NCBI GenBank assembly: GCA_003250355.1
Contig: QKGS01000007.1
Coordinates: 62,001-126,000, forward strand
Direction of reading: 5' to 3'
From: Bacteroidota bacterium
Lineage (GTDB): Bacteria; Bacteroidota; Bacteroidia; Bacteroidales; SZUA-534
Length of the DNA: 64,000 nucleotides
The notes below the pieces were generated by a model. It saw only the letters and a program-made list of their open reading frames with translations, had not been told where the DNA came from and did not search any database. The translations under genes were made by a program, and so were the position numbers. Positions 19,664-41,795 of the stretch are shown here, piece after piece. Numbering within the stretch: the first letter of the stretch is position 1; every line of letters begins with the position of its first letter.

Positions 19664-19703
19664 ACACTGACAATACTTTTAATTAACAGTATCGTATCAG
19701 TTA

Positions 19704-20528: not shown

Positions 20529-20555
20529 TTGTAGTTGTTTTCTTTCTTTTCATTG

Positions 20556-21080
20556 TTATTTAATGTAATTGAAACATTCCCGAAAAACTTTCAATGCTTT
20601 ACTCATATTTGCCTCTACAGTTTTTACGGAAATATTTAGTTTCTCTGCTATTTCTGAATATTTTAATCCTTGATTTCTGCTTAGAAGAAAAATATTTCTG
20701 GTTTTCTCGGGTAGTTTTTTTAATTGTTCCCTATATACAGCATACATTTCGCCTACTATTATCCCTTCTTCAGGGGTAGGCAGTGAATCATTGTTGCCAA
20801 TATAAGAGTCTGCATATTTTTGAACTACTTTGTTATGTGCAATTATATGCAAACTCTTATTATAAACACTTCGGTACAAATAGCTGTCTATATTTTCAAT
20901 TTCCAATCGGTTTTTCTGTTCCCATAATTTAAGAAATACTTCCTGAACAACCTCTTCTGCCTGTTCTGAGCTTTTCAATATCTTTAAAGCATAACCACAT
21001 AAAGGAGAATATATTCTATGAAATATTGACTCAAAATCTTTTTTGCTGCTTTTTGTATTCCACTTTTTTATTTCTGACAT
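20556..21080 (-). CDS. ECF RNA polymerase sigma factor (FecI-like)
   Basis: A 174-residue ECF sigma factor. The sigma-2 region spans about residues 16-85 (AEEVVQEVFLKLWEQ) and the sigma-4 helix-turn-helix about 118-170 (LPEKTRNIFLLSRNQGLKYS followed by EIAEKLNISVKTVEANM). It belongs to the Bacteroidota family paired with FecR. It sits between a CarboxypepD_reg protein (20 bases upstream) and the FecR gene (27 bases downstream), so the four genes are probably co-transcribed and the sigma factor may regulate its own operon. Confidence 0.92.
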   Translation of the reverse strand: MSEIKKWNTKSSKKDFESIFHRIYSPLCGYALKILKSSEQAEEVVQEVFLKLWEQKNRLEIENIDSYLYRSVYNKSLHIIAHNKVVQKYADSYIGNNDSLPTPEEGIIVGEMYAVYREQLKKLPEKTRNIFLLSRNQGLKYSEIAEKLNISVKTVEANMSKALKVFRECFNYIK

Positions 21081-21100
21081 ATTCTCCTGTTTTTGAAACT

Positions 21101-24997: not shown

Positions 24998-26185
24998 TTA
25001 TTTCAAACTATCAGCCATTGCTTTTGCTATTCCTCGGCAAATGCAAATGTCGTCGTATTTAGCTGTATGTCGCGCCTCGCTTGGTTCTGATACAATATCC
25101 CAATCTACATTTTCTGCAAATTTTTGTATAGCACGAACTCCGCCGCCTCCCCAGCTGGAAGAACCGAAAATAGCTAATTTGCGGTTGCGAATATTAATAT
25201 GCTCAAGATCGCTCATAATGTGTGCCATGGGAGGGAATATTCCTCCATTATAAGCACAGCTTCCTAATACTACACCCTTGTATTTGAATATTTCATTGAT
25301 AATATACGATTCGTGAGTTTTTGCAGCATCTATAACTTTAACATTAGTTATACCTTCTTCAACTAAAAAGCGTGCAATATAATCGGCTATTTTTTCTGTA
25401 TTTCCATACATTGTTCCAAAAACAATAACTACACCTTTGTCGGCTTCAAACTTGCTCCACTTGTCATATTTTTCAAGAATATAAGGTATTTTTGTTTTCC
25501 AAATTATTCCATGCGAAGGAGCTATTTGCTCTATTGCTAATCCGCCTAATTTTTGTAAAGCTTTTTGTACTTGTGCGCCATATTTAGCAACGATATTTGA
25601 ATAATATCTTGCAATTTCATCTTCATACCATGCAAAATCTATTTCGTTGTCGAATATTCCGCCACAGTGGGCTCCAAAGCTTCCGAACGCATCATTTGAG
25701 AATAATATTTTTTCTTCAGGGCAGTATGTAACCATTGACTCTGGCCAGTGAACCATTGGAATGGTGAAGAACTGTAAGCTTCTAGAACCTAATGAAAGAA
25801 CCTCTGCCTCTTCGATTTCCTGAAAGTTTTCGGTTATACCATAAAAACCTTCAATCATAGGTTTTGTTTTTTTATTTCCAATTAATATAACATTGGGATA
25901 TGCTTGTACTACCTCACGTATTGAACCTGAATGATCGGGTTCCATATGGTTTACAACCAAATAATCGAGGGTTTTGCCGTTGAGCAATTCTTTAATCCAA
26001 TCTACTAAATCGCCACTAAATGGAGCTTCGGCAGTATCAATTAATGCTGTTTTTTCATCTACAACAAGGTATGCGTTATATGCAACTCCTTTATCTAGTG
26101 GCCAATGATTTTCAAATAAATGTTTTTTTCTATCATTAAATCCCAGCCAGTATATTTCCCGGCTTAATTCTACTCTTAAAGACAT
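24998..26185 (-). CDS. FprA-family A-type flavodiiron protein
   Basis: A 395-residue two-domain enzyme. The metallo-beta-lactamase-like N-terminal domain (1-250) carries the diiron ligands in NHMEPDHSG (H80, E82, D84), with later ligands in MVHWPES, FSNDAFG and APSHGI. The flavodoxin domain starts near residue 252 (VIVFGTMYGNTEKIADYIA) and binds FMN. Such proteins reduce O2 to water or NO to N2O in anaerobes, taking electrons from rubredoxin or an NADH:rubredoxin partner; none is fused here. Its role is oxygen or nitrosative defence, in line with the SOD further along. O2 versus NO preference cannot be told from sequence. Confidence 0.92.
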   Translation of the reverse strand: MSLRVELSREIYWLGFNDRKKHLFENHWPLDKGVAYNAYLVVDEKTALIDTAEAPFSGDLVDWIKELLNGKTLDYLVVNHMEPDHSGSIREVVQAYPNVILIGNKKTKPMIEGFYGITENFQEIEEAEVLSLGSRSLQFFTIPMVHWPESMVTYCPEEKILFSNDAFGSFGAHCGGIFDNEIDFAWYEDEIARYYSNIVAKYGAQVQKALQKLGGLAIEQIAPSHGIIWKTKIPYILEKYDKWSKFEADKGVVIVFGTMYGNTEKIADYIARFLVEEGITNVKVIDAAKTHESYIINEIFKYKGVVLGSCAYNGGIFPPMAHIMSDLEHINIRNRKLAIFGSSSWGGGGVRAIQKFAENVDWDIVSEPSEARHTAKYDDICICRGIAKAMADSLK

Positions 26186-27576: not shown

Positions 27577-28242
27577 ATGGCACGTTTTAAAAGATTACAC
27601 GTATTAAATACGATCAATGAAACAAAGATTGTTCCTTTGTATTACAATGCTAATGCTGAAATTGTAAAAAATGTAGTGAAAGCTTGTTATGCCGGAGGAG
27701 CAAGAGTTTTTGAATTTACTAACCGCGGCGATTTTGCTCATGAAGTATTTGCAGAAGTTAACAAATGGTGTGCAAAGGAATGTCCTGAGATGATTATGGG
27801 TGTAGGTTCGGTTGTGGAGTCGGGAACAGCATCGTTATACATTCAGTTGGGTGCTAACTTTATAGTAAGCCCAAGCTTGAACCCCGATATGGCTAAAGTA
27901 TGTAATCGTCGTAAAGTAGCTTGGTTACCGGGGTGTGGAACTCTTTCTGAAATTAATATGGCAGAAGAGTTAGGTTGCGAAATAGTTAAAATATTCCCGG
28001 GTAAAGAAACCGGAGGTCCATCTTTCGTAAAAGCAATTACCGCTCCATGTCCTTGGACAAGCATTATGCCGAGTGGTGGAGTGTCGCCCGATAAAGAAAA
28101 TCTTGAATCGTGGTTTAAAGCCGGCGTAACATGTGTAGGTTTAGGTTCTCAGTTAACTCCGGCCGATGTTATTGCAAAAGGCGATTATGGCTTTATTGAA
28201 AAAACAGTAAAAGAGGCAATTGCAATAGCAAAAGCTATATAA
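27577..28242 (+). CDS. eda: Bifunctional KDPG / 4-hydroxy-2-oxoglutarate aldolase
   Basis: Class I aldolase of 221 residues that splits 2-keto-3-deoxy-6-phosphogluconate to pyruvate and glyceraldehyde-3-phosphate. E46 and R50 (FEFTNRG) and the Schiff-base lysine K138 (IVKIFPG) are in place, as are the phosphate-binding glycines near MPSGGV. It has its own promoter and terminator, so it is a separate transcript just upstream of the GH117/sulfatase/dehydrogenase genes. In the AHG pathway the last carbon-splitting step is a KDPG- or KDPGal-type aldolase, so the position fits. A housekeeping Entner-Doudoroff or uronate role is the alternative. Confidence 0.92.
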   Translation: MARFKRLHVLNTINETKIVPLYYNANAEIVKNVVKACYAGGARVFEFTNRGDFAHEVFAEVNKWCAKECPEMIMGVGSVVESGTASLYIQLGANFIVSPSLNPDMAKVCNRRKVAWLPGCGTLSEINMAEELGCEIVKIFPGKETGGPSFVKAITAPCPWTSIMPSGGVSPDKENLESWFKAGVTCVGLGSQLTPADVIAKGDYGFIEKTVKEAIAIAKAI

Positions 28243-28266
28243 GATATTTATAGGCAAATAACGATT

Positions 28267-28304
28267 AACCCCTTATCTCATAGGCAGAAAAGGGGTTTTT
28301 TTAT
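28267..28304 (+). terminator. Rho-independent terminator after eda
   Basis: AACCCCTT (28267-28274) pairs with AAGGGGTT (28290-28297), followed by seven T. It separates eda from the first glycosidase gene. Confidence 0.8.
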
Positions 28305-28370
28305 TGTCTGCAAGGCTATTTATTTATTGAAATATATTATATTCGTGGCTCTATTGAAAAAGTTTAAAAT

Positions 28371-29723
28371 ATGAAGAAAATAAGTTTAATTCTTGCAATT
28401 GTATCTATTATTGTATGCAGTTGTACTAAGAATAAGTATTCGGGAATAGTTAAAGATACGGAAGGTAATGCTTTATCAGATGTTGAGGTATTTGTTAAAG
28501 AAACCGGTTTGTTAACTCTAACCAATGACGACGGAGGGTTTACTGTAGAACAACCCAATGTGCCTGTAACCATAGTTTTTGGAAAAGAAGGGTATATGTA
28601 TGAACAATTAATAAATGTTGATACTGTTTCAGGCTTGGTGGTTACTATGCGCAAGGCAATAAAAAGTGCAGCATCTATTCGTGAAGAAATATATGTTGAG
28701 GAAGGTTGCGATAAGGTGGAGATACCTGAGGATTCACAGTGGGAAGTTGATTTTGTTCATACCGACTTGAAGGGTGATCTTGCTCCTGATATGGAATATA
28801 CACGTCGCGACCCTAGTGCTGTAATTAAAGTAGGCGACTTGTATTATATGTGGTATTCTTATAGCCGTACTATTATGGACGATAAACAGGCACCATGGGA
28901 TTTGAACGATCTTTATTATGCAACATCTACCGATGGTATTACATGGGAAGAGAAGGGGGCTGCAATAGAAAGAGGGCCGGAAGGTTCTTTCGATTACCGC
29001 TCGGCTTTTACAACCGAAATATTTGTACACGATAGTACTTATTATTTAGTATATCAGGCTGCAGCCGATTTGCAGGGTATTTACGATAGAAACACTGTGG
29101 CTATGGCTTATGCCGGTTCACCCGACGGGCCATGGACAAAACTTGATAAGCCTGTTTTGTATCCAACATATACCAATAATATTTATTTCGACAATAATGC
29201 AGTTCACGACCCATGTATAATAAGTTACAACAATAAGTTTTATTTGTATTATAAAGGTGAGTGTAATTGTATGGGTAAAGAAGATTGTAAGAGATGGTGT
29301 AACCCTGTTTGTGGAAAATTTTACAATACTAATAACGGGGGTATTTATAAGCAAGTTAAATGGGGAGTTGCAATTGCCGATAATCCAACCGGGCCATATG
29401 TAAAGTCGGAATATAACCCTATAACCAATACAGGACATGAAGTAATGGTATGGCCTTATAAAAATGGAGTAGCAATACTTCAACATCAAGATGGGGCAGA
29501 GTATAATACTATTCAGTATGCTTCCGATGGTGTTAACTTTGAAATAATGGGTTCGGTAAATGGAATTCCTGAAGCTGCCGGGTTATTCCGAGCTCCAAAA
29601 TCTGACACAGACCCTCATGCAGGTGTTCAGTGGGGTGTTGCTCATTACTTGCAATGGGATCATCCTGAAACACAACTTGGGTGGATGTACATTCACCGAT
29701 TTGATAAAAAGGAGAAGAAATAA
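28371..29723 (+). CDS. Lipoprotein: CarboxypepD_reg + GH117-like glycosidase (copy 1)
   Basis: 450 residues. A lipoprotein signal ends at C18 (VCSC), followed by a CarboxypepD_reg-like domain (about 22-95) and a five-bladed-propeller glycosidase domain (about 100-448). I assign GH117 from the N-terminal helix (SAASIREE), YTRRDPSAVIKV with D147, NAVHDPC with D280, and TNTGHEVMVWPY with H356/E357, which match the Asp/Asp/His-Glu active-site pattern of that family. GH117 enzymes remove 3,6-anhydro-L-galactose from the non-reducing end of neoagaro-oligosaccharides. A cysteine-rich insertion (C298, C300, C306, C310, C314) lies between D280 and H356. No CBM or sorting tail. A distant GH43-like specificity cannot be excluded. 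Confidence 0.78.
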   Translation: MKKISLILAIVSIIVCSCTKNKYSGIVKDTEGNALSDVEVFVKETGLLTLTNDDGGFTVEQPNVPVTIVFGKEGYMYEQLINVDTVSGLVVTMRKAIKSAASIREEIYVEEGCDKVEIPEDSQWEVDFVHTDLKGDLAPDMEYTRRDPSAVIKVGDLYYMWYSYSRTIMDDKQAPWDLNDLYYATSTDGITWEEKGAAIERGPEGSFDYRSAFTTEIFVHDSTYYLVYQAAADLQGIYDRNTVAMAYAGSPDGPWTKLDKPVLYPTYTNNIYFDNNAVHDPCIISYNNKFYLYYKGECNCMGKEDCKRWCNPVCGKFYNTNNGGIYKQVKWGVAIADNPTGPYVKSEYNPITNTGHEVMVWPYKNGVAILQHQDGAEYNTIQYASDGVNFEIMGSVNGIPEAAGLFRAPKSDTDPHAGVQWGVAHYLQWDHPETQLGWMYIHRFDKKEKK

Positions 29724-29743
29724 TAAGTGATAATTGTTATATA

Positions 29744-29778
29744 AAAAGCCGGTTTCGAGAGATTCCGGCTTTTTTTTG
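29744..29778 (+). terminator. Rho-independent terminator after glycosidase copy 1
   Basis: AAAAGCCGG and CCGGCTTTT form a 9-bp stem with a 12-base loop, followed by more T. Confidence 0.8.
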
Positions 29779-29854
29779 ATGATTAATGCAAAGTTTATTA
29801 TTCAGATATAATCATTATATTTATCGTTTTATTACAAATAACAGGGGAAATAAT

Positions 29855-31825
29855 ATGAGAATTTTTGCATCAGTACTTGCTATATTGGCAGTACCTTTCA
29901 TTGTTTTTAGTCAAAATTATTCGGGAGTAGTTTACGATAATGGTGGAAATATTTTAAGCGGTGTTAAGGTTGAGTTTTTAAATAATAACTCTGAAACCGT
30001 AACTAATGCTTCGGGGGAATGGAGTGCTACTCTTTCCGGTAGTACTGAAACAATTGTTTTTGGAAAGCAAGGTTATACTTATGAGCAAATTGTTGACCAG
30101 TCACCGTCAACTGCTATTAGTATATCGTTGCGCAATACAGTTGATAGTTATGCAACTACAAGAGAAAAACAGTATAAAGCCGATGGATGCTCTTCGGTAT
30201 CGATACCAAACAGTAAGGAGTGGAATACTGAGTTTAAGCATACTGAGTTGTTAGGCGATTTGGCACCCGACAGAAACTACACGCGCCGCGACCCTAGTGC
30301 TGTTATAAAAGTTGCCGACAAATATTATGTTTGGTATTCGTACAGCCCTACGGTTATGACCGGCAAGCAGGCACCATGGGATTTGAACGATTTGTATTAT
30401 GCAACATCTACCGATGGTTTAACCTGGACAGAGCAAGGAGCCGCAATAGAACGGGGAGTTGGAAGTATTTATGATGCTCGCTCTGCATTTACAACCGAAA
30501 TATTTGTACATAATAATACCTACTATTTGGTATATCAGGCTGCGGCCGATCAAAACGGTATATATAATCGCAATACTGTTTGTATGGCTCATGCAAGCTC
30601 ACCCGATGGACCATGGACTAAAGTTACAGAGCCTGTTCTAAGACCTACGTACACAAGCGATATTTATTTCGATAACAATGCAGTTCATGACCCATGTATA
30701 GTTCACTATAACAATAAGTTTTATTTGTACTACAAAGGCGAATGTAATTGTATGGGTAGTGCAGGTTGCAATACATGGTGCAACCCTGTATGTGGTTTAG
30801 GAAAGCAGGTAAAATGGGGGGTGGCAGTAGCTGATAGTCCAACAGGACCTTATGTAAAATCAGAGTATAACCCAATAACAAATACCGGACACGAGATAAT
30901 GGTGTGGCCATATAAAACAGGTGTTGCAATATTACAGCATCAAGACGGCCCTGAAGCTATGTCAATTCAATATTCGGAAGATGGACTAAACTTTGAAATG
31001 AAAGGAAATGTGAGTGATATTCCGGAAGCAGCCGGTTTATTTCGTTCCGATAAATCAGACACAAACCCGCACACCGGTATTTCATGGGGGTTAGGTCATG
31101 TGCTGATGTGGAACTATGCAAGCGGGTGGATGTATATTACACGCTTTGATACAATTGCCCCGGAGGGGTTAACAGTAAGTGCCAATTCGTTTGCACAAAC
31201 AGGAGGTACATATGATGATGGAATTGTCCCATTTGGGTTTAATAGAAATAGCTCGGGTGTAAGTTACGTAAATACAGATGATTGGGCTACTTATAGTATC
31301 AATATTGAAGAGACCGGTATTTATAAGGTTAAATACTATGCTTCAACTCCATCTCTAAACGCCGAGGTATCTTTGTACGTAGATGATAATTTATCGGCAA
31401 CAGATATTGTACCCGATACCGATGGGTGGAACAACTATACTGAAATAACATCGTTATCGACATTTACACTTACAGAAGGAAGTCATATATTAAAACTTGT
31501 AGCTTCGGGTAGTGATAACTGGCAGTGGAATATGACAAAATTTACATTAATTAAAATTTCTGATATTAATGTAGGAGCTTGTAATGAAATTAGTGCAGAC
31601 AATGTTGTGTTACACCCAAATCCGGCAAACAATGAGGTAAATATTTCGGGTATTACAGGTGAGTATAATATTCAGATTGTTTCGCTTGACGGAAAAATTG
31701 TGAAGGATAAAAAATTAGCAGGAACAGCATATGTTAATCTTAGTGGTATTGACCAAGGTATTTATAATGTTTTATTGCAAATATCGGACTATGTAGTTGT
31801 TAAGAGGTTAGTAGTAAGTAAGTAA
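29855..31825 (+). CDS. T9SS-secreted CarboxypepD_reg + GH117-like glycosidase + CBM6 (copy 2)
   Basis: 656 residues from the ATG at 29855, chosen because it is preceded by AGGGGAAA and opens a clean signal peptide (MRIFASVLAILAVPFIVFSQ); an upstream in-frame ATG at 29786 would add an unlikely 23 residues. Domains: CarboxypepD_reg (about 22-95), GH117-like propeller (about 98-440; D146, D279, H346/E347), a CBM6-type beta-sandwich (about 445-575: DDWATYSINIEETGIYKVKY, KLVASGSDNWQWNM), then a type A T9SS sorting domain (last ~75 residues, VVLHPNPANNEVNIS). The cysteine insertion is C297, C299, C305, C309, C313. It should be exported to the cell surface, unlike copies 1 and 3. Confidence 0.78.
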   Translation: MRIFASVLAILAVPFIVFSQNYSGVVYDNGGNILSGVKVEFLNNNSETVTNASGEWSATLSGSTETIVFGKQGYTYEQIVDQSPSTAISISLRNTVDSYATTREKQYKADGCSSVSIPNSKEWNTEFKHTELLGDLAPDRNYTRRDPSAVIKVADKYYVWYSYSPTVMTGKQAPWDLNDLYYATSTDGLTWTEQGAAIERGVGSIYDARSAFTTEIFVHNNTYYLVYQAAADQNGIYNRNTVCMAHASSPDGPWTKVTEPVLRPTYTSDIYFDNNAVHDPCIVHYNNKFYLYYKGECNCMGSAGCNTWCNPVCGLGKQVKWGVAVADSPTGPYVKSEYNPITNTGHEIMVWPYKTGVAILQHQDGPEAMSIQYSEDGLNFEMKGNVSDIPEAAGLFRSDKSDTNPHTGISWGLGHVLMWNYASGWMYITRFDTIAPEGLTVSANSFAQTGGTYDDGIVPFGFNRNSSGVSYVNTDDWATYSINIEETGIYKVKYYASTPSLNAEVSLYVDDNLSATDIVPDTDGWNNYTEITSLSTFTLTEGSHILKLVASGSDNWQWNMTKFTLIKISDINVGACNEISADNVVLHPNPANNEVNISGITGEYNIQIVSLDGKIVKDKKLAGTAYVNLSGIDQGIYNVLLQISDYVVVKRLVVSK

Positions 31826-31834
31826 AATCAAATA

Positions 31835-31864
31835 TTAACCCTGATTATAAATTCAGAGGGTTAA
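31835..31864 (+). terminator. Weak hairpin between glycosidase copies 2 and 3
   Basis: TTAACCCT pairs with AGGGTTAA around a 14-base loop, but no T run follows. It may be a 3' stabiliser or allow read-through into copy 3. Confidence 0.4.
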
Positions 31865-31902
31865 ACTATAATGAAAAATTAGAGATTAACTAAAATCAAA
31901 CT

Positions 31903-33633
31903 ATGAAGACTAAACTTATTTATTTATTTGTTATTGTAGTGCTTGCAGGGTGCGGGCAAAAATATTCTGGTGTAGTAACCAATTCAGAGGGAAAAGCTTT
32001 AAGCGGAGTGAAAGTTACTATTAACGGAACCAATTATGGAACCAATACCGATGAGAGTGGAAAATGGAGTATTGAGCCTCAAGATTCGGAATTGGGAGTA
32101 ATAACACTAGTGTTTTTTAAGAGTGGATATATGCATGAGCAGATAGTAAAACAAAAGCCTTCGGGAGGTATAAAAACCGAGCTTCGTATGCATATAAACA
32201 GTGCAGCAACAGAACGTGAGTTGGGTTATGTTGAACATGGTTGTGGTTCGGTAAATATTCCGGACAATGCCGATTGGAATGTGAGTTTTTTACACTCGAA
32301 TTTGAAAGGCGATTTAGCTCCCGATAAGAAATATACCCGCCGCGACCCTAGTGCAGTAATAAAAGTAGATTCGTTGTATTATATGTGGTATTCTTTTAGT
32401 TTGTCTGACGATACAATGAAAATAGCTCCATGGGATTTGAATGATATTTATTATGCAATATCGGTTGATGGTGTTACATGGACAGAGAAGGGGGCAGCTG
32501 TTATGCGCGGAGCAGAAGGTGAGTTCGATTTTCGTTCAGTATTTACAACCGAGATATTTGTACATGAAGGTAAATACTATTTAGTATATCAGGCAGCTGA
32601 TAACAAAGTTGGAATTTTCGATAGAAATACAGTAGGTATGGCATATGCAACATCACCTAATGGACCCTGGACTAAATTGAAAGAACCTGTATTAAGACCA
32701 ACATATACTAACGAAATATATTTTGATAATAATGCAGTACACGACCCTTGTGTTGTGGTTTATAACAATAAATTTTATTTGTACTATAAGGGAGAGTGTA
32801 ATTGTTTTGGAGCAGAAAATTGCCAATCGTGGTGTAATCCGATTTGCGGGTTAAGCAAGCAAGTACGTTGGGGAGTAGCCATAGCTGATAATCCAACAGG
32901 ACCATACATAAAGTCAGAGTATAACCCAATAACCAATACCGGGCACGAAATTATGGTGTGGCCTTATAAAAATGGCATTGCTATATTACAACATCAAGAT
33001 GGGCCTGAGGCTCGTTCAATACAGTTTGCTGCCGACGGGCTTAATTTTCAGATAATGGGAATGGTTAATAATATTCCGGAAGCTGCCGGTCTTTATCGTG
33101 CTCCGGTATCAGATAATAATCCTCATGCCGGAATAGAGTGGGGGGTAGGTCATGTACTCCGCTGGGATGGAGGTGTTAACCAAAATGGATGGATGTATAT
33201 CAACCGATTCGATAAGGTTGATGCTTCTACTCTGATTATTGATGCAGGTGCATTTGTGAAAACGGGAGGTACTTTCAATGATGGTTTGGTTCCGTTTGGG
33301 TTTAATTCAACCGGTGCAGTTGCAAGTCATGTAAATACTCAAGATTGGGCAGAATACAATGTGAATATTGCTGAAAGTGGAGAATACTCGGTTGAATACT
33401 ATATAAGTACGCCGCTCGATAATGCTGAAGTTTCAATGTATGTTAATAATAAGCTTGTAGATAAATGTACAGTTAAAAACAATGGTGATTGGGGCAATTT
33501 CTCTGAACCTGTTTTTTCAAATAATCCTGTTTATTTCGAAAAAGGTGAACAGATGTTAAAGATTGTAGCTTCGGGTACAAGCGAGTGGCAATGGAACTTT
33601 AAAGGAATGATTATTAAAAAAGCCGATTTGTAA
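31903..33633 (+). CDS. Lipoprotein: CarboxypepD_reg + GH117-like glycosidase + CBM6 (copy 3)
   Basis: 576 residues. A classic lipobox (LAGC, C17) is followed by a CarboxypepD_reg domain (about 20-95), the GH117-like propeller (about 98-435) with D148 (YTRRDPSAV), D281 (VHDPC) and H348/E349 (TNTGHEIMVWPY), and a C-terminal CBM6-like domain (about 440-576: QDWAEYNVNIAESGEYSVEY, KIVASGTSEWQWNF). No sorting tail. The insertion cysteines are C299, C301, C307, C311 and C315. With copies 1 and 2 it forms a tandem family that probably arose by duplication and then diverged in localisation and binding module. Confidence 0.78.
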   Translation: MKTKLIYLFVIVVLAGCGQKYSGVVTNSEGKALSGVKVTINGTNYGTNTDESGKWSIEPQDSELGVITLVFFKSGYMHEQIVKQKPSGGIKTELRMHINSAATERELGYVEHGCGSVNIPDNADWNVSFLHSNLKGDLAPDKKYTRRDPSAVIKVDSLYYMWYSFSLSDDTMKIAPWDLNDIYYAISVDGVTWTEKGAAVMRGAEGEFDFRSVFTTEIFVHEGKYYLVYQAADNKVGIFDRNTVGMAYATSPNGPWTKLKEPVLRPTYTNEIYFDNNAVHDPCVVVYNNKFYLYYKGECNCFGAENCQSWCNPICGLSKQVRWGVAIADNPTGPYIKSEYNPITNTGHEIMVWPYKNGIAILQHQDGPEARSIQFAADGLNFQIMGMVNNIPEAAGLYRAPVSDNNPHAGIEWGVGHVLRWDGGVNQNGWMYINRFDKVDASTLIIDAGAFVKTGGTFNDGLVPFGFNSTGAVASHVNTQDWAEYNVNIAESGEYSVEYYISTPLDNAEVSMYVNNKLVDKCTVKNNGDWGNFSEPVFSNNPVYFEKGEQMLKIVASGTSEWQWNFKGMIIKKADL

Positions 33634-33659
33634 ATAATACTCAAATATTAAAATATTGG

Positions 33660-33690
33660 AAAGACTGCATTTTAGGTGCGGTCTTTTTTA
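33660..33690 (+). terminator. Rho-independent terminator after glycosidase copy 3
   Basis: AAAGACTGC and GCGGTCTTT form a 9-bp stem with one G-U pair, followed by T residues. Confidence 0.75.
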
Positions 33691-33724
33691 TGTATTATTG
33701 TAGAGTAACATAAAAAATAGATTT

Positions 33725-35323
33725 ATGAAGAGGGTATTTTTTCTGATAATCGCAGTGTTAGTAGCATTTACTTCATGTAAAAAAGAACAAAAAGGTAGGC
33801 AACCGAATATTATATTTATAATGTCCGATGATCATGCAGCCCATGCAATAGGAGCTTATGGCGGCAGACTGGCAGAGCTTAATCCTACCCCAACTATCGA
33901 TAGGCTGGCAGAGCAGGGGCTGTTATTTGAAAATACATTTTGTAATAACGCTATTTGTACTCCAAGCAGAGCTTCAATTATTACCGGGCAATACCCTCAA
34001 ACCAATGGTGTGCTTGACCTTGATGGAGCATTAGATACAGCAAAGCAATATTTGCCAAAGGAGATGAAAAAGTTAGGTTATTCAACGGCTATTATAGGCA
34101 AATGGCATTTGAAAAATGAGCCTTCTAATTTTGATTATTATGAAGTATTGCCTAGTCAGGGGCAATACTATAATCCGCAAATGCATAATAAGAAAAAAGG
34201 GGAGTGGCCGGATAATTTGGTTTCATACATCGGGCATTCATCAACAGTTATAACAGACAGGGTAATTAATTATTTAGATAACAGAGATAAAAGCAAACCA
34301 TTCTTTATAATGCACCATTATAAAGCTCCCCACGATATGTTTGAGTACGATACTGTATATGAAAAATATCTTGCTGATGTAGAAATACCGGAGCCGGTTA
34401 GTTTATTTTATCAGCCAAAGTTTGGTTCAGAAGCTATACGAGGCCGTAATGATAGTCTTATTCATTATATAGGAACATCGGTTTCGCCCCGTCATAATCA
34501 GCTTAGGTATACATTGGCAAGTAACTACACTAAGCATTTTTATGGCGATACAATAGACCCTGTGGTTGGAACAAAAATGGCGTATCAGCAGTATTTGAAA
34601 ATGTATTTGCGCTGTGTTAAGGGCATTGACGACAATATGGCGAGGTTATTCAAGTATTTAAAAGAAAATGACCTTTGGGAAAATACAGTAATAATATACA
34701 CTGCTGATCAGGGTATGATGCTTGGTGAACATGATTTTATTGATAAGCGGTGGATTTATGAAGAGTCAATGCGAATGCCATTTATAGTGTACTATCCAAA
34801 AGATATTGAGGCGGGCAAACGGACTGATTTGTTGGTTAATAATACCGATTTTGCTCCTACTATTATTGAATTGGCCGGAGGCAAAGCACCTGAGTATATG
34901 CAGGGAATGAGTTTTATCAATACTTTGCATGGAAAGGAGGAAGAGAACTGGAGAAAAACTACATATTATCGTTACTGGATGCATATAATTCATCATTATG
35001 TTCCGGCTCATATAGGCGTTCGATCAAAAGATTATAAGCTTATTTTTTATTATGGCAAACACTATTTACCACAAGAAGAATTCGGAAAGTATTATTGGGC
35101 AACTCAATATACCGGCGTAGAAAGAGAAACCCCTCCGGCATGGGAATTTTATGATTTGCGTAATGACCCACAGGAATTAGTTAATTGTTATAACAATCCT
35201 GAGTATAAAGATGTAATTGCAGAGCTAAAAGCCGATATGAAAATGCAACGCAAGGAATTTGGAGAAACAGATGATAACTATCCTGAAATTAAGAAGATTA
35301 TTGAGGACAACTGGGATAAATGA
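33725..35323 (+). CDS. Family S1 formylglycine-dependent sulfatase, lipoprotein
   Basis: 532 residues. A signal peptide ends at C18 (AFTSC), and the alkaline-phosphatase-superfamily domain starts with NIIFIMSDDHAAHAIGAYGG (metal ligands D35, D36). C78 in CTPSRAS is the cysteine converted to formylglycine. Later core motifs are IGKWHLK, HHYKAPHD and YTADQGMMLGEHDFIDKRW. The C-terminal sub-domain ends with WEFYDLRNDPQE. Its place beside GH117-like glycosidases suggests it desulfates algal galactan oligosaccharides such as porphyran. The S1 subfamily and the sulfate position cannot be read from sequence alone. The maturase (anSME or FGE) is not in the window. Confidence 0.9.
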   Translation: MKRVFFLIIAVLVAFTSCKKEQKGRQPNIIFIMSDDHAAHAIGAYGGRLAELNPTPTIDRLAEQGLLFENTFCNNAICTPSRASIITGQYPQTNGVLDLDGALDTAKQYLPKEMKKLGYSTAIIGKWHLKNEPSNFDYYEVLPSQGQYYNPQMHNKKKGEWPDNLVSYIGHSSTVITDRVINYLDNRDKSKPFFIMHHYKAPHDMFEYDTVYEKYLADVEIPEPVSLFYQPKFGSEAIRGRNDSLIHYIGTSVSPRHNQLRYTLASNYTKHFYGDTIDPVVGTKMAYQQYLKMYLRCVKGIDDNMARLFKYLKENDLWENTVIIYTADQGMMLGEHDFIDKRWIYEESMRMPFIVYYPKDIEAGKRTDLLVNNTDFAPTIIELAGGKAPEYMQGMSFINTLHGKEEENWRKTTYYRYWMHIIHHYVPAHIGVRSKDYKLIFYYGKHYLPQEEFGKYYWATQYTGVERETPPAWEFYDLRNDPQELVNCYNNPEYKDVIAELKADMKMQRKEFGETDDNYPEIKKIIEDNWDK

Positions 35324-35417
35324 TTGAAATATATATGTCAAATAAAAACTTTTTTGTTTATTGCATTGTGTTTCTTTATTTCTAATTAAAATATAGAATC
35401 TATTGGCATAGATATGT

Positions 35418-35447
35418 TTTGAAAGACTTCTTTCTTTTTTATATTTG
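35418..35447 (+). promoter_or_regulatory. Promoter of galM-rhaT
   Basis: TTTG (35418-35421), an 18-base spacer and TATATTTG (35440-35447), 36 bases before the galM start. This suggests galM and the permease can be transcribed apart from the sulfatase. Confidence 0.65.
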
Positions 35448-35483
35448 GAATCGCTATTTATATTTAAATAAAATCAAATTAAT

Positions 35484-36518
35484 ATGAAGATAAAAAAATC
35501 AAACTTTGGTTCTTATGAATCGCAAACGATTGAGCTGTTTGAATTGTCGAACAATAATGGAATGACAGTAAAGATAATGAACTACGGAGCTACTATTACT
35601 TCAATAACTATACCGGCCAAACAGGGTGGAGTGAAAGAAATAGCGTGTGGGTTCGATAAATTTGAGTCGTATTTCTCCGATGAATATAAAGCTAATGCCC
35701 CTTACTTTGGCTGTACGGTAGGTCGTTACTGTTCGCAAATTAAAGATGCTAAGTTTACAATGGACGGAAAAGAATATAAACTAGCTGAAATGGTAGGAAC
35801 AAACAATCTTCACGGAGGTTTGGTCGGATTCGATAAAAAAGTATGGAAGGCAAAAGAAGTAGGAGCGGCAGCGGTAGAAATGTCTCTTTTAAGTAAAGAT
35901 ATGGAAGAAGGCTTTCCGGGTGATGTTGAAGTAACAGTAACTTTTACTCTCACTAACGATAACGAAATAAAAATTGACTACAAAGGAGTGCCAAATAAAA
36001 AAACACCTTTGGCAATGACTAATCATACATATTTTAACCTATCGGGATTTGCTGATGATATTTTAGGACATAAAGCAACTGTTCTTACAGGTAAAAAACA
36101 AGAGTGCGACGAAACAGGTGCAGGTACAGGTAAAGTTGTAAACCTTGACGGAGCTCCCGACGATTTACGCAAAGGGAAGTTAATTGGTGAAGCACACAAG
36201 GCTATGGGAAGCGGGTTTGAAAATTTTTATATAACTGAAGCTAATTTTAAGTTAACTAAAGTTGCTGAAGTAGAATACCCTGCCGACGGTACTAAACTTG
36301 AAGTATCAACTACCGAACCAACAATGTTGCTTTATACAGGAAAATATACAGCCGACAATCTTAAACGTGAAAACGGATTACAATATGGACAGTACAGAGG
36401 TTTCTGTTTAGAAACTCACCGTACACAGAATGGACCAAATATCTCGGGGTCGCCTAAAACATTTACAGGAGCAGGTGAAACTTTTGAGAGTACAACAATA
36501 TTTAAACTTACATTTTAA
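35484..36518 (+). CDS. galM: Aldose 1-epimerase (galactose mutarotase family)
   Basis: A 344-residue beta-sandwich enzyme of the GalM family that interconverts alpha and beta anomers of free sugars. Conserved marks are NLHGGLVGFDKKVW, the catalytic-histidine segment MTNHTYFNLSG, and the glutamate in GFCLETHRTQNGPN. That last segment differs from the usual ETQ-xxPDAPN form, so substrate preference may be altered. It has its own promoter and is 19 bases ahead of a sugar permease, suggesting it prepares galactose or anhydrogalactose released by the glycosidases for metabolism. Confidence 0.88.
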   Translation: MKIKKSNFGSYESQTIELFELSNNNGMTVKIMNYGATITSITIPAKQGGVKEIACGFDKFESYFSDEYKANAPYFGCTVGRYCSQIKDAKFTMDGKEYKLAEMVGTNNLHGGLVGFDKKVWKAKEVGAAAVEMSLLSKDMEEGFPGDVEVTVTFTLTNDNEIKIDYKGVPNKKTPLAMTNHTYFNLSGFADDILGHKATVLTGKKQECDETGAGTGKVVNLDGAPDDLRKGKLIGEAHKAMGSGFENFYITEANFKLTKVAEVEYPADGTKLEVSTTEPTMLLYTGKYTADNLKRENGLQYGQYRGFCLETHRTQNGPNISGSPKTFTGAGETFESTTIFKLTF

Positions 36519-36537
36519 ACAAATAAATTAAATAATT

Positions 36538-37539
36538 ATGGGAATTTTATTAGCAATTACAGCAGGTATAATGTTGGGCTTTTGGGCAATGCCTGAGAAA
36601 TATATTAAGAACTATGCTTTTGAAAATGCATGGGGACTTTGTTACGTATTTATGTTATGGTTAATACCGGGAATTGTAGCATTTTCAATGATTACCAATT
36701 TTGGTGGAGTGTTATCAGATGTAGGTACGCCGGTTTTACTAAAAATGTTAATTCCGGGTTTCCTTTGGGGAGTAGGAATGATGCTATGGGGTAAGGCTAT
36801 AAACTACATTGGTATGTCGCTAGGGTTCTCTATTTTTATTGGAACTATAATTGTAGTTGGGTCATTATTACCTTGGGTGTTATCAGGAGTTCCGGAAACA
36901 GGTAAAGCACCAATTTTAATTGGTATAGCAGTTATTTTAGCAGGTATTGTGTTCAATGGACGCGCAGGAATTCTTCGTTCGGCATCAGAAGGAGGCAGTA
37001 GTGCTGCCGGGTCATCAATGCTTACTGGTATTATTATAGCAGTTGTTGGCGGTATACTTTGTACAGGGTTTAATGTTGCATTAGAGATTACTGCAAATGG
37101 TCAGGCTGCAAAGAATATTATAGGCGAAATGGTTGTGAAAAATGGAAACGATGCTTGGTTGGCATCTGTTGCATCAATGTTTATTGTATATGTTTCCGGT
37201 GGTGTTTTTGTAGTGCCTTATTTCTTAGTTATGTTATCTAAAAAGAAATTATGGGGAGGTTTTAAAGTTGCAGAAGCAGGCAAAAATATATCAATGACAG
37301 GCTTAATGGCAGCATTAAACTTTGCAGCATCTATTGTATTTGCTTATTCATCATTCGTATTAGGTAAAGAAGGAGGTTCTGTTGGATACGCTATTTTCAA
37401 CACTCTTTCAGTTGTAACCGCTGTTACTGCCGGAGTACTTACTAAAGAATGGGCAGGAGCTTCAAAAGCATCAAAAACATCGTTATACATAGGTATAGCC
37501 GCAATGGTTGGTGGCGTTATGGTTATTGCATTTGCATAA
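36538..37539 (+). CDS. RhaT-family sugar:H+ symporter (DMT superfamily)
   Basis: A 333-residue protein with about ten hydrophobic helices, starting LLAITAGIMLGFWAMPEKYI and matching the L-rhamnose-proton symporter family in length and in the pattern of conserved tryptophans (KMLIPGFLWGVGMMLWGKAI). Tightly linked to galM and ended by a strong terminator. In this context the likely cargo is a free 6-deoxy or anhydro sugar such as 3,6-anhydro-L-galactose rather than L-rhamnose, since no rhaA, rhaB or rhaD is near. That is inference from neighbours. Confidence 0.82.
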   Translation: MGILLAITAGIMLGFWAMPEKYIKNYAFENAWGLCYVFMLWLIPGIVAFSMITNFGGVLSDVGTPVLLKMLIPGFLWGVGMMLWGKAINYIGMSLGFSIFIGTIIVVGSLLPWVLSGVPETGKAPILIGIAVILAGIVFNGRAGILRSASEGGSSAAGSSMLTGIIIAVVGGILCTGFNVALEITANGQAAKNIIGEMVVKNGNDAWLASVASMFIVYVSGGVFVVPYFLVMLSKKKLWGGFKVAEAGKNISMTGLMAALNFAASIVFAYSSFVLGKEGGSVGYAIFNTLSVVTAVTAGVLTKEWAGASKASKTSLYIGIAAMVGGVMVIAFA

Positions 37540-37932
37540 TTATTATACAAGGCTTTTTGCCCTATGCATATTTAAGTGTTTTTCTATAAGAATGTTTCAT
37601 ATATATTAAAGTTAGATATATAAGAGGCTGCTTCAAAAGCAATTTGGAGACAGCCTCTTTTTTTTGTAGATATTTTGTAAGTCAGCATAGTAATATATTG
37701 GTAATTTTATATCTTTGACATCCAATTTAGATACGTTTTAATTGTTTGTATTTAGGCTTTTAAACTGTTGATTAAATGCATATTTTGAAGTAGAGTTCTT
37801 GTGATAAGAAGATAAACAATTAACGTTAAAACAGTTAAACAAAAACAGTAATTCATTAGTTTAATTTGCATCGAGGGTTTTTGAGGAAATTCCCGATATG
37901 AATTTTTTAAATTATATACATATTTATATAAA
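37540..37932. other. 393-base intergenic region between permease and alcohol dehydrogenase
   Basis: No gene was found. It holds a strong terminator (37622-37667) and, on the plus strand, a TATCTTTG (37710-37717) that matches a -7 element but has no good -33 partner. If used, it gives the dehydrogenase gene a leader of about 215 bases. No riboswitch was recognised. Confidence 0.5.
37622..37667 (+). terminator. Rho-independent terminator after the sugar permease
   Basis: AAGAGGCTG (37622-37630) pairs with CAGCCTCTT (37651-37659), followed by at least six further T. Confidence 0.85.
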
Positions 37933-38949
37933 ATGAAAGCAGCTTATTATAAAGAAAAAGGAAAATTTGAAGTAGGAGAAAGTGAAATAATCGCTCCTAA
38001 AGAAGGTCAAGTGCGTTTAAATGTTGCATACTGTGGAGTATGTGGTAGCGATGTTCACATTTATCACGGCGTTATGGATGCTCGTGTTAAAGCACCTCAG
38101 GTTATTGGTCACGAAGCTTCGGCTACAGTTGCTGAGGTGGGGCCCGGTGTTACTAACGTAAAGCCTGGCGACAGAGTAGTAATTCGTCCGTTACATTTCG
38201 GAGCACCTCACTCTTTCGATAATGGTTATACCCACGTAGGTAAAAACCTTAAATTTATTGGTATTGATAGTTCAGGAGCTTTTCAGGGAAGCTGGACAGT
38301 ACCATCGTATACACTGCACAAAATTCCGGATTCACTTTCATTAAAGCACGGTGCTTTAATTGAGCCTTTAGCAGTAGCATGTCACGATGTGAGCGTAGGT
38401 CGTGTAAAAGCAGGTGAAAACGCTGTAGTTATTGGTGGTGGTCCTATTGGTGTTCTTATTGCTTTTGTATTACGTGAAAAAGGTGCAAACGTAATTATTT
38501 CAGAAGTTAATGAAACTCGTTTAGCTATGCTTAAAGAGTTCGGTTTCCAAACAATTAACCCGATTAAAGAAGATTTAGTAGCCAGAGTAAGCGAGCTTAC
38601 AAACGAAACTATGGCTCACGTTGCTTTTGAAGTATCGGGTTCTCAACCAGGCGTTGATGCAATGACTAAAGTTCTTAATGTACGTGGTCGTATTGTAATG
38701 GTTGCTATCCACGGTGGCGAGCCTAAAAAAGTTGACTTATTCAAATTCTTCTGGCAAGAAATAGAGCTTTTAGGTGCTCGTTTGTACGAAGAGAAAGATT
38801 TCGAAGAAGCAATTAAACTAGCTTCATCAGGTAATATTCCTTTAGATGCTATTATTACTAAAGAAGATTCTTTGGAGAATATTCAGGGAGTATTTGAAGA
38901 AATAGACAGAAATCCAATAGGAATGAAATACTTAATTAACTGTCAGTAA
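37933..38949 (+). CDS. Zinc-type medium-chain alcohol dehydrogenase (candidate L-KDGal 5-dehydrogenase)
   Basis: A 338-residue medium-chain dehydrogenase. Catalytic-zinc ligands are C37 (CGVCGSD), H60/E61 (IGHEA) and E144 (IEPLAVACH); the nucleotide site is VVIGGGPIGVLIA (168-173). The usual four-cysteine structural-zinc loop is absent: the segment after RVVIRP reads LHFGAPHSFDNGYTHVGK. It resembles sugar-acid dehydrogenases such as L-galactonate 5-dehydrogenase and sorbitol dehydrogenase. In the known AHG route 2-keto-3-deoxy-L-galactonate is oxidised at C5, and this enzyme is the best candidate here. The assignment depends on the neighbouring aldehyde dehydrogenase and cycloisomerase. Confidence 0.8.
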   Translation: MKAAYYKEKGKFEVGESEIIAPKEGQVRLNVAYCGVCGSDVHIYHGVMDARVKAPQVIGHEASATVAEVGPGVTNVKPGDRVVIRPLHFGAPHSFDNGYTHVGKNLKFIGIDSSGAFQGSWTVPSYTLHKIPDSLSLKHGALIEPLAVACHDVSVGRVKAGENAVVIGGGPIGVLIAFVLREKGANVIISEVNETRLAMLKEFGFQTINPIKEDLVARVSELTNETMAHVAFEVSGSQPGVDAMTKVLNVRGRIVMVAIHGGEPKKVDLFKFFWQEIELLGARLYEEKDFEEAIKLASSGNIPLDAIITKEDSLENIQGVFEEIDRNPIGMKYLINCQ

Positions 38950-38965
38950 TAAGTATAAAATATTT

Positions 38966-39008
38966 GAAATCACTCATTAACATTATTAATGGGTGATTTC
39001 TTTATTAT
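38966..39008 (+). terminator. Rho-independent terminator after the alcohol dehydrogenase
   Basis: A 15-bp stem with one G-U pair (38966-38980 with 38986-39000) around a 5-base loop, followed by a T-rich stretch. Confidence 0.8.
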
Positions 39009-39168
39009 TATAAATGCATATTCTGCATTATGAAAAAACAGTTTTCAGGAAAATTTGTTACAGGTAATACAGGGTGTTAGTATAATTTAGTGATAAAATC
39101 CTTTAAACTTTAATACTTCATGTGTTGGGTTTGGGTATAATATATTGAAAAATCAAACCTTAAAGAAA

Positions 39169-40623
39169 ATGAAATCAGAATTAAAATTTGATCAGTTTAT
39201 AAATGGCGAATGGGTAAAATCAGAAGGTGGTAAACTTCTTGAAGTAATAAACCCATCAACCGAAGAAATAGTTGGATATTGCATTGATGGCAGTATCGAA
39301 GATGCAGAAAAAGCATTACAAGCAGCCGAAGCTGCTCAAAAGGAGTGGAAAAGAATTCCGGCTCATACCCGTGGCGATTATCTTCGCCGTTTTTCAAATG
39401 AAATAAAGGCAAATCGCGATTTTCTTGCAAAACTACTAGTGCAAGAACAAGGCAAATTGCTTAAAGTAGCATATGGCGAAGTAGATGCAACTTGTACTTT
39501 TTTAGAATATGCTACAGAGTGGGCTCACCACATAGAAGGCGACATAGTGCCTTCCGACAATAAAGATGAACATATTTATATACATAAAATACCTAAAGGT
39601 GTTGTTGTTGCTATTACAGCATGGAACTTTCCTTTAGCACTAGCAGGTCGGAAAATAGGTCCGGCTCTAATAGGAGGTAATACAATTGTAGTAAAACCAC
39701 CATTTGAAACACCATTATCAACACTTGCATTGGGCGATTTAGCCAATAAGGCCGGTATACCTAAAGGGGTACTAAATATTGTAACCGGCGATGGGCCAAA
39801 CTTTGGCAACTATTTAGTAAAAAACCCTATAACTAAAATGGTTACAATGACCGGGAGTACCCCAACCGGACAGGCAATAGCACGTTCTGCGGCCGATAAT
39901 TTAGCCAATGTGCAGCTTGAACTGGGAGGAAAAGCACCTTTTATTGTTTTTGACGATGCTGATATTGATAAAGCCGTTGATGCTGCTTTACATTCACGTT
40001 TCGATAACTGCGGACAGGTTTGTACTTGTAACGAGCGATTGTATTTACAGGAAAGTATTTACGACGTATTTATGAGTAAATTCATGGAAAAAGTAAAAGC
40101 ATTCAAAGTAGGCGACCCTATGAATGCCGATACCGATATGGGTCCCAAAGTAAATGCCCGTGAAGCAGAACATATGTACAAAATTGTAGAACAAGCAGTG
40201 GCAGAAGGTGCAACACTTGCTTATGGAGGCAAAAAACCGGAAGGAAAGCAATTCGAGAAAGGATATTGGTTTATGCCTACAGTACTTACAGATGTTACAC
40301 AAAATATGAAAGTAGTACATGAAGAAACCTTTGGACCAATATTACCTGTGTTAAAGTTTAAAGACTTTGAGCAAGCTGTGGAGTTTGCCAATGATTCAGA
40401 ATTTGGTCTTGCTGCAATGGTATTTACCAACGATATGAAAAAAATTCTACGCCTAAATCTTGAACTTGAGTTTGGTGAAATTTATATTAATCGCGGCCAT
40501 GGAGAACAACACCAAGGATTTCACAATGGATATAAACTAAGCGGAAGTGGTGGCGAGGATGGTAAATATGGATTTGAGCAATATTTGGAAAAGAAAACAT
40601 TTTATGTGAACTTTAGTTCATAA
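39169..40623 (+). CDS. Aldehyde dehydrogenase (candidate 3,6-anhydro-L-galactose dehydrogenase)
   Basis: 484 residues from the ATG at 39169; a TTG eight codons upstream is less likely. NAD(P)-dependent aldehyde dehydrogenase with N153 (AWNFP), K176, E251 (LELGGK) and the nucleophile C285 (GQVCT). Overall it is like lactaldehyde/glycolaldehyde dehydrogenase AldA. The AHG dehydrogenase that oxidises the sugar aldehyde to 3,6-anhydro-L-galactonate belongs to this group. The next gene begins 32 bases later and looks like the enzyme acting on that product, supporting the assignment. Lactaldehyde oxidation, as in fucose or rhamnose use, is the main alternative. Confidence 0.85.
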   Translation: MKSELKFDQFINGEWVKSEGGKLLEVINPSTEEIVGYCIDGSIEDAEKALQAAEAAQKEWKRIPAHTRGDYLRRFSNEIKANRDFLAKLLVQEQGKLLKVAYGEVDATCTFLEYATEWAHHIEGDIVPSDNKDEHIYIHKIPKGVVVAITAWNFPLALAGRKIGPALIGGNTIVVKPPFETPLSTLALGDLANKAGIPKGVLNIVTGDGPNFGNYLVKNPITKMVTMTGSTPTGQAIARSAADNLANVQLELGGKAPFIVFDDADIDKAVDAALHSRFDNCGQVCTCNERLYLQESIYDVFMSKFMEKVKAFKVGDPMNADTDMGPKVNAREAEHMYKIVEQAVAEGATLAYGGKKPEGKQFEKGYWFMPTVLTDVTQNMKVVHEETFGPILPVLKFKDFEQAVEFANDSEFGLAAMVFTNDMKKILRLNLELEFGEIYINRGHGEQHQGFHNGYKLSGSGGEDGKYGFEQYLEKKTFYVNFSS

Positions 40624-40655
40624 ACATCAAATAATAATTAATAAACTTACTAGCA

Positions 40656-41747
40656 ATGAGCAAAATAGCTAAAGTAGAATCGAAATTGTTTAAAGTGCCT
40701 CTGGCTGAGGTTTTAAGCGATGCAAAACATGGTGATCACTTTCATTTTGAATTAATTACCACAACCATAACTTTAGAAGATGGTTCTCAAGGAACCGGAT
40801 ATACATATACCGGAGGTAAAGGTGGTCATGCAATTAAAGCAATGGTTGATTACGATCTTGCACCTGCTTTAATTGGTATGGATGGTACCGATATTGATGG
40901 TATATACGATTTTATGGAGTGGCATATTCACTATGTAGGTCGCGGAGGTATTGCTTCTTTTGCTATTTCTACGGTTGATATTGCTTTGTGGGATATTAAA
41001 GGTAAGCGCGAAGGTTTGCCTCTTTGGAAAATGGCAGGTGGTGCAAGCAACAAGTGTAAAGCTTATTGTGGTGGTATCGACTTAATGTTCCCGCTCGAAA
41101 AGCTTTTGTCGAACATTAAAGGTTATCTTGACAATGGCTTCAATGCAGTAAAAATAAAAATAGGTCGTGAGAATATGGACGAAGATATTGAGCGAATCAA
41201 AGCTGTTCGTGAATTTATTGGTCCCGATGTTACTTTCATGGTCGATGCTAATTACAGTATGTCGGTAGAGCAAGCAATTGAATGTGCTAATCGTTTTAAA
41301 CCTTACAATATTTATTGGTTTGAAGAGCCAACTATCCCTGATAATTACAAAGGATATGCAAAAATTGCCGATGCTACCGGTGTTCCTTTAGCAATGGGTG
41401 AAAACCTTCACACTATTCACGAGTTTGAGTATGCAATGGAAGATTCTAAATTGTCGTTTGCACAACCCGATGCTTCAAACTGTGGTGGTGTAACCGGTTG
41501 GTTAAAAGCCTCAAAACTAGTGGGTAAAAATAATATCCCAGTTTGTTCGCATGGTATGCAGGAACTACATGTTAGTTTGGTTTCATCGCAGGCTCATGCA
41601 GGTTGGATAGAAGTTCACAGCTTCCCTATTGATGAATATACAAAACGCCCATTGGTTGTTGAAAACCATATGGCTATTGCTCCCGATACCCCGGGTGTTG
41701 GTGTTGAGTTCGATTGGAATAAACTTGCTCCGTATTTAGATAAATAA
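40656..41747 (+). CDS. Enolase-superfamily protein, probable 3,6-anhydro-L-galactonate cycloisomerase
   Basis: 363 residues. Mandelate-racemase subgroup of the enolase superfamily: K166 and K168 (AVKIKIG), metal ligands D197 (VDAN), E223 (WFEEP) and E249 (GEN), and base H299 (CSHGMQE). The N-terminal lid [18 protein letters not shown] and the [13 protein letters not shown] loop match what I remember of the Vibrio 3,6-anhydro-L-galactonate cycloisomerase, which opens the anhydro ring to give 2-keto-3-deoxy-L-galactonate. The gene follows the candidate AHG dehydrogenase by 32 bases and is closed by a terminator. L-fuconate or other sugar-acid dehydratases share the fold, so an alignment is needed to fix specificity. 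Confidence 0.82.
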
Positions 41748-41761
41748 TATTTTCACATATG

Positions 41762-41795
41762 AAGAGGCTGCAAAAAAAGCAGTCTCTTTTTTTAT
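41762..41795 (+). terminator. Rho-independent terminator after the cycloisomerase gene
   Basis: AAGAGGCTGC and GCAGTCTCTT form a 10-bp stem with one G-U pair and a 7-base A loop, followed by T7. Confidence 0.85.

Follow-up and report, generated by a model that had tools for sequence, protein, structure and literature searches.

The use of 3,6-anhydro-L-galactose (AHG) has been described in Aquimarina sp. ERC-38, Paraglaciecola hydrolytica S66 and P. atlantica T6c, where, as far as the accessible parts of the reports tell, the genes for AHG dehydrogenase, the cycloisomerase and 2-keto-3-deoxy-L-galactonate 5-dehydrogenase stand together and the gene for 2-keto-3-deoxygluconate (KDG) kinase lies away from the cluster, as does that for the aldolase in strain ERC-38 (PMC10163077, PMC5943477). 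In Zobellia, the D-AHG pathway with DauA and DauB performs the same chemistry on the other enantiomer (accessible part of PMC5698469). In this work, we focused on a stretch of 64,000 nucleotides from a Bacteroidota bacterium (contig QKGS01000007.1, positions 62,001 to 126,000), hereafter the window, which is part of contig C75 of a genome of 3.70 Mb in 106 contigs. An initial annotation had proposed an AHG catabolic locus at positions 27577-41747, and the open reading frame (ORF) listing places all ten of its genes where it had put them, in one direction on the forward strand, with fitting Pfam and NCBIfam domains. Judging from the comparisons below, this is very probably an AHG release-and-use locus of an agar/porphyran-degrading member of the Bacteroidota. 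Its core is, by homology, the already published pathway and is well supported; its three GH117-like glycosidases appear to belong to a small branch of that family.

The AHG core and its conserved neighbourhood

The assignment is carried by two enzymes, for which the initial annotation had advised alignment with characterised AHG proteins. In searches against the PDB, the best solved relative of the enolase-superfamily protein was the 3,6-anhydro-L-galactonate cycloisomerase (ACI) 5xd7 (652 bits), the next family following 328 bits behind (324 bits). That of the aldehyde dehydrogenase (ALDH) was 6j75 (720 bits), given in the accessible part of PMC10163077 as 3,6-anhydro-alpha-L-galactose dehydrogenase, EC 1.2.1.92; then came 3k2w, named betaine-aldehyde dehydrogenase (611 bits), and a lactaldehyde dehydrogenase, rejected at 443 bits. 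Talarate/galactarate, galactonate and rhamnonate dehydratases were likewise outscored by the ACI match, and no entry named L-fuconate dehydratase occurred among the best 60 of the 94 PDB matches of the enolase protein. The D-AHG (carrageenan) route was discarded because DauB (5olc) reached 155 bits, compared with the 652 of the L-type match. By strong homology, the two proteins are assigned to the AHG dehydrogenase and ACI families; the outcome named beforehand as contrary, a closer relationship to L-fuconate dehydratase and lactaldehyde dehydrogenase, did not appear at the sequence level.

We further assessed the neighbourhood of ACI in other genomes. A scan of genome contigs found 116 ACI relatives, and 80 loci were kept, mostly from Bacteroidota, with 71-81% identity. 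The zinc-dependent medium-chain dehydrogenase (MDR) occurred near ACI in 73 of the 80 loci, ALDH in 70, GalM in 58, the RhaT-type permease in 56 (identity up to 86%) and GH117 in 57 (with copy A, defined below, as query). Since these five recur beside ACI in other loci, the gene grouping of the window is not due to chance. The S1 sulfatase and the Eda-type aldolase were found in 3 and 9 of the 80 loci. A reductase of the short-chain dehydrogenase/reductase family (SDR) was detected in 64 of them by clustering and in 67 by tblastn. The order MDR-SDR-ALDH-ACI was kept in 58 of the 62 loci having all four genes, and 42 of the 80 loci showed exactly MDR-SDR-ALDH-ACI-GalM-RhaT. Among 60 relatives searched, ACI was found in one, which is the genome studied here.

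The locus of the window departs from this arrangement, as it does from the described L-AHG clusters: the SDR is missing, its place being taken by an MDR-ALDH gap of 219 bp with a hairpin; GalM and RhaT precede ACI instead of following it downstream; and the run also takes in three GH117 genes and an S1 sulfatase. Like the described strains, in which the kinase or both kinase and aldolase lie apart (accessible parts of PMC5943477 and PMC10163077), this genome holds part of the route elsewhere. An SDR on contig C83 shares 87% identity with the SDR inside the cluster of one of the ACI loci (L003) and scores above the NCBIfam cut-off for gluconate 5-dehydrogenase and below that for KduD. On contig C26, a PfkB kinase has the KDG kinase 2afb as its best solved relative (191 bits); its gene is one small gene apart from that of a large protein with a type IX secretion tag and CBM6-like stretches. 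By homology, contigs C75, C83 and C26 can together supply every step of the published route, and both distant genes may serve it. The initial claim of an AHG route is thus supported, with one correction: ALDH, ACI, a candidate MDR and the aldolase are in the run, but the reductase and the KDG kinase are elsewhere, so the locus alone is not the whole route. The MDR is a candidate 2-keto-3-deoxy-L-galactonate 5-dehydrogenase, and the RhaT-type permease a candidate importer of AHG or galactose.

A GH117 branch with a cysteine-rich loop

Pfam and NCBIfam describe the three glycosidases (copies A, B and C) as GH43-like propellers, no GH117 model being among the matches. The PDB search gave GH117 structures (5ta7, 4ak5, 3r4y and 3p2n) for copies A and C, and B and C share 69% identity (all pairs about 65-72% in the catalytic domain), which bears out the GH117-like identity given to the three in the initial annotation. 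The structural model of copy C (pLDDT 89.8) matched 4ak5 with a Z-score of 44.4 and a root-mean-square deviation of 1.6 over 303 residues; 4u6d and 4u6b gave Z-scores of 39.7 and 35.9, and the best match outside GH117 25.0. Eleven positions are identical to BpGH117 in all three copies: Asp90, Thr165, Glu167, Gln180, His244, Asp245, Lys260, His302, Glu303, Asp320 and the Trp of the PWD motif. The roles of these catalytic and binding residues are treated in the accessible parts of PMC11574756 and PMC8152962, the latter numbering the Trp 128 where our mapping gives 127. The SxAxxR motif is also kept (SAASIR, SYATTR and SAATER), as in 79 of 82 aligned sequences. Propeller fold, catalytic residues and this motif are shared with BpGH117 (4ak5), BuGH117B (5ta7), the Zobellia enzyme (3p2n) and SdNABH (3r4y), and strong homology places the trio in the GH117 family.

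The trio nevertheless differs from characterised GH117 enzymes in several respects. Directly after the Lys260 equivalent, each copy carries a loop with five extra cysteines, and a sixth cysteine stands before the domain. Further domains are added: copy B has CBM_6 and Por_Secre_tail above and CarbopepD_reg below the Pfam cut-off, copy C has CBM_6 and CarbopepD_reg_2 above it and a lipobox read by eye, and copy A shows a CarbopepD_reg match below cut-off and a lipoprotein signal, also read by eye. In A and C, the catalytic domain lacks the C-terminal tail present in a canonical GH117 that the same genome keeps on contig C40, a tail also absent from at least one other GH117 row. In BuGH117B, according to the accessible part of PMC5849685, H392 of the partner chain completes the +1 subsite.

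For the comparison, 79 other GH117 rows were aligned first (62 from ACI loci, 16 from a phylum search and the C40 copy), six duplicates of genes of the window or of its genome having been dropped. In a set of 71 canonical rows, which includes BpGH117 and one repeat of the C40 copy, 49 of the positions that at least 90% of the rows conserve are altered in all three copies; eight of the 49 are deletions, and Arg189, His241 and Lys242 are among the differing positions. A quick tree, which came with a warning of long-branch joins, grouped the trio in one clade (SH-aLRT 100) outside the canonical group of 70 rows. On these comparisons, the trio is judged not to be of the ordinary agar GH117 type.

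The distribution of the loop was then assessed with further rows (16, one from contig C28 of genome G783, and nine), giving 105 in total, 101 distinct at 98.5% identity and about 100 genes, two of the distinct rows being pieces of one gene on contig C68 of genome G454; a fragment on contig C98 of the host genome ends before the loop and was not counted. The full loop was present in six proteins of three genomes (the host genome, G605 and G454), and these proteins agree in the six cysteines and in the eleven residues. It was absent from the about 100 other GH117 genes (105 rows), none of which has three or more of the loop cysteines; a single one occurs in a few (for example on G783 contig C28, G454 contig C68 and host contig C1). 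Across the phylum (395 genomes, E ≤ 1e-30), GH117 was found in 11 genomes including the host, and the loop in the host alone. Within the order (393 genomes, E ≤ 1e-40), five genomes including the host had GH117: G605 carries two neighbouring copies with the full loop, G454 one, and G507 neither the loop nor an intermediate. Three genomes searched from the family of G605 yielded no further loop gene. The GH117 of G783 (L166 10021-11391) is intermediate between the canonical and the loop-bearing type, with 56% identity to copy C and one loop cysteine; in the 20 kb read there, sulfatase matches were weak (29-33%).

A sulfatase accompanies this branch. The best solved relatives of the S1 sulfatase of the window are the exo-L-galactose-6-sulfatases 7lha (648 bits) and 7snj (629 bits) of porphyran loci, matched over almost the whole length, with the next at 318 bits; a C-T-P-S-R motif of the formylglycine type was read by eye. 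We take 7lha and 7snj to be S1_11 members. Strong homology places the protein in the sulfatase family, and the match agrees with the porphyran link proposed initially. The position of the gene in an AHG-use cluster, as in only 3 of the 80 ACI loci, sets it apart from the sulfatases of porphyran loci. A relative of this sulfatase lies 5.8 kb from the nearest loop gene in G605 (58% identity) and 3.6 kb from it in G454 (69%). An exo-L-galactose-6-sulfatase-like gene thus stands within 6 kb of a loop gene in 3 of 3 genomes, versus 3 of the 57 ACI loci with GH117 (Fisher tests, 0.0006 with the window and 0.006 without it, related genomes being treated as independent and the stretches being of unequal length). 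The loop contig of G605 also holds GH16, GH29, GH2 and GH43-CBM6 genes, and that of G454 GH86-type, GH2, canonical GH117 and hybrid-sensor-type kinase genes, so that both GH117 types share one contig. ACI lies on contigs other than those of the loop or intermediate gene in G454, G605 and G783, and gave no match in G507. Among the titles listed in literature searches on GH117 with disulfide, cysteine-rich or CBM6, or on GH117 paralogy or dimerization, none names a loop of this kind, subscription literature being mostly outside their scope; this small branch is apparently undescribed.

Gene layout and genomic context

Intergenic gaps within the run range from 19 to 160 bp, except for those between RhaT and MDR (393 bp) and between MDR and ALDH. 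The predicted features are listed in Table 1.

Table 1. Predicted features of the AHG locus (positions within the window).
Feature	Position	Strand	Basis
KDPG/KHG aldolase (Eda-type), last route step	27577..28242	+	NCBIfam NF005499 353 bits, cut-off 275; Pfam Aldolase
GH117 copy A, putative lipoprotein: CarbopepD_reg-like and cysteine-loop GH117 catalytic domain	28371..29723	+	PDB 5ta7/4ak5 283/282 bits
Cysteine loop of copy A	29247..29315	+
GH117 copy B: CarbopepD_reg-like, cysteine-loop GH117, CBM6 and type IX secretion C-terminal signal	29786..31825	+	Pfam, alignment
Cysteine loop of copy B	30728..30796	+
GH117 copy C: lipobox, CarbopepD_reg-like, cysteine-loop GH117 and CBM6	31903..33633	+	PDB 4ak5 277 bits; model Z 44.4
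Cysteine loop of copy C, around and after the Lys260-equivalent residue	32782..32850	+
S1 sulfatase, exo-L-galactose-6-sulfatase-like	33725..35323	+	PDB 7lha 648 bits
GalM-type aldose-1-epimerase	35484..36518	+	TIGR02636 256 bits (below cut-off 398); PRK11055 242 (above 240)
RhaT-type sugar/proton permease	36538..37539	+	NF010022 260 bits (below cut-off 369); Pfam RhaT above cut-off
Zn medium-chain dehydrogenase (MDR)	37933..38949	+	Pfam/NCBIfam Zn-alcohol dehydrogenase, Tdh-like
Hairpin in MDR-ALDH gap	38966..39000	+	terminator-like scan
3,6-anhydro-L-galactose dehydrogenase (ALDH)	39169..40623 (ATG; longer frame from TTG at 39145)	+	6j75 720 bits
3,6-anhydro-L-galactonate cycloisomerase (ACI), MR/MLE enolase superfamily	40656..41747	+	5xd7 652 bits
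Terminator-like hairpin right after ACI	41761..41789	+	terminator-like scan

Elsewhere in the window, a single reverse-strand frame (3-14357) stays open for at least 4785 aa and extends beyond the left end. Also on the reverse strand, opposite to the locus, an extracytoplasmic function sigma factor, a FecR-type protein and carboxypeptidase-regulatory-domain proteins were read by eye at 18146-22369. Also by eye, a flavodiiron protein was recognised at 24998-26185 and a fused Nfn- or Sud-type flavoprotein at 49167-51392; if so read, these two would suit an anaerobe.

The genome contains 13 GH86 porphyranase-type domain matches above cut-off (contigs C10, C21, C30, C40, C48, C92, C95 and C106), a large set for 3.7 Mb, and none of 14 control genomes has any. 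Five GH16 match rows and six GH29 matches were also found; 6 and 3 of the 14 controls have GH16 and GH29, respectively. From its gene content, the organism seems to specialise in agar and porphyran. On contig C40 (L103 8878-18949, L104 799-4236), a nitrogenase cluster follows the canonical GH117 and is itself followed by a GH86-type frame; nifH, nifD and nifE score above cut-off and nifK-, nifN-, nifV- and nifA-like genes below. Having nitrogen fixation alongside genes for agar degradation would fit a life on polysaccharide poor in nitrogen.

Proposed mechanism and rival explanations

Outside the inner membrane, the three exported GH117 enzymes would release the terminal AHG of neoagaro-type chains, and the S1 sulfatase would strip L-galactose at the chain end of its 6-sulfate. 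GalM and the RhaT-type permease would prepare and import the sugar. Inside, the ALDH would oxidise AHG to anhydrogalactonate, ACI would convert it into 2-keto-3-deoxy-L-galactonate, and the zinc dehydrogenase would oxidise C5 of the latter; the KduD-like SDR of contig C83 would reduce that product to KDG, which the kinase of contig C26 would phosphorylate to KDPG (its 6-phosphate) for cleavage by the Eda-type aldolase of the window.

Several observations weigh against this assignment. The second-best solved relative of the ALDH trails 6j75 by 109 bits, and the NCBIfam label above threshold for this protein is plain aldehyde dehydrogenase (PRK10090). The matches of the MDR are generic, below the cut-offs of all 25 NCBIfam matches listed, with 1e3j among its PDB matches. 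All NCBIfam matches of the C26 kinase are below cut-off, and ORFs read by eye beside the C83 SDR include no evident sugar-pathway genes, so that orthology is what ties it to the AHG route. Matches to the Bacteroidota-type promoter pattern do not exceed chance (8 found versus 5.4 expected) and so do not speak for co-transcription of the locus, and hairpins after copy C and after the MDR suggest more than one transcript. Terminator-like hairpins as a whole (14 found versus 9.0 expected, standard deviation 2.9) are a weak signal alone, and a sigma-70 scan was uninformative (62 versus 58.3). The RhaT-type permease and the AldA-type label of the ALDH would also suit intracellular genes that handle L-fucose, L-rhamnose or lactaldehyde rather than AHG. 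This is very improbable: the AHG enzymes are the best matches of ALDH and ACI by 109 and 328 bits, and GH117 stands near ACI in 57 of 80 loci.

The role of the trio leaves more room for alternatives. Because copy B combines a type IX secretion tail with CBM6, copy C carries CBM6, and A and C show lipoprotein signals by eye, the enzymes would be placed outside the cell or at its surface, where they may act on hybrid or sulfated chains. With less confidence, we suggest that the cysteine loop reshapes the active site on its leaving-group side to accept hybrid agar/porphyran chains and leaves the AHG pocket intact. The full proposal, in which the loop proteins form a new GH117 subgroup, have a rebuilt leaving-group subsite and strip AHG from sulfated hybrid chains at the cell surface in step with the exo-L-galactose-6-sulfatase, is tentative and falls short of an even chance. 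About as likely, and approaching an even chance, is that the three are ordinary neoagaro-oligosaccharide hydrolases whose cysteines merely stabilise exported enzymes by disulfides: none of the catalytic and reported binding residues tested has changed, the fold of copy C is close to that of BpGH117, and six cysteines, an even number, suit three disulfides. The 49 altered canonical positions, with their eight deletions and Arg189, His241 and Lys242 among them, speak against it, and plain redundancy is disfavoured by the canonical GH117 kept on C40 and by the presence of both types on one contig of G454. In 3 of 3 genomes, loop genes lie near one for an exo-L-galactose-6-sulfatase-like protein, which could alternatively mean that one or more of the trio free L-galactose, after the S1 sulfatase has removed its 6-sulfate, rather than AHG. 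We regard this as unlikely: the AHG-pocket residues tested are unchanged, and GH29, a candidate for this task, has six matches in the host genome and a gene on the G605 contig. The GH29 of the porphyran locus PUL-PorB is presumably an alpha-L-galactosidase. Its gene and that of an S1_11 sulfatase are consecutively numbered in that locus, according to the accessible part of PMC12316285.

Returning to the hybrid-chain proposal, in G605 and G454 the loop/sulfatase pair and ACI lie on separate contigs and here they lie in one run, which fits the idea of one diet. Natural porphyran and agar are hybrid chains. The accessible parts of the papers cited here do not state how exo-enzymes handle AHG next to sulfated L-galactose; a GH117 branch whose genes neighbour that of a sulfatase offers a concrete enzyme pair for this question. 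If the proposal is true, mixed chains would be eroded from the end without prior sorting into pure agar and pure porphyran pieces.

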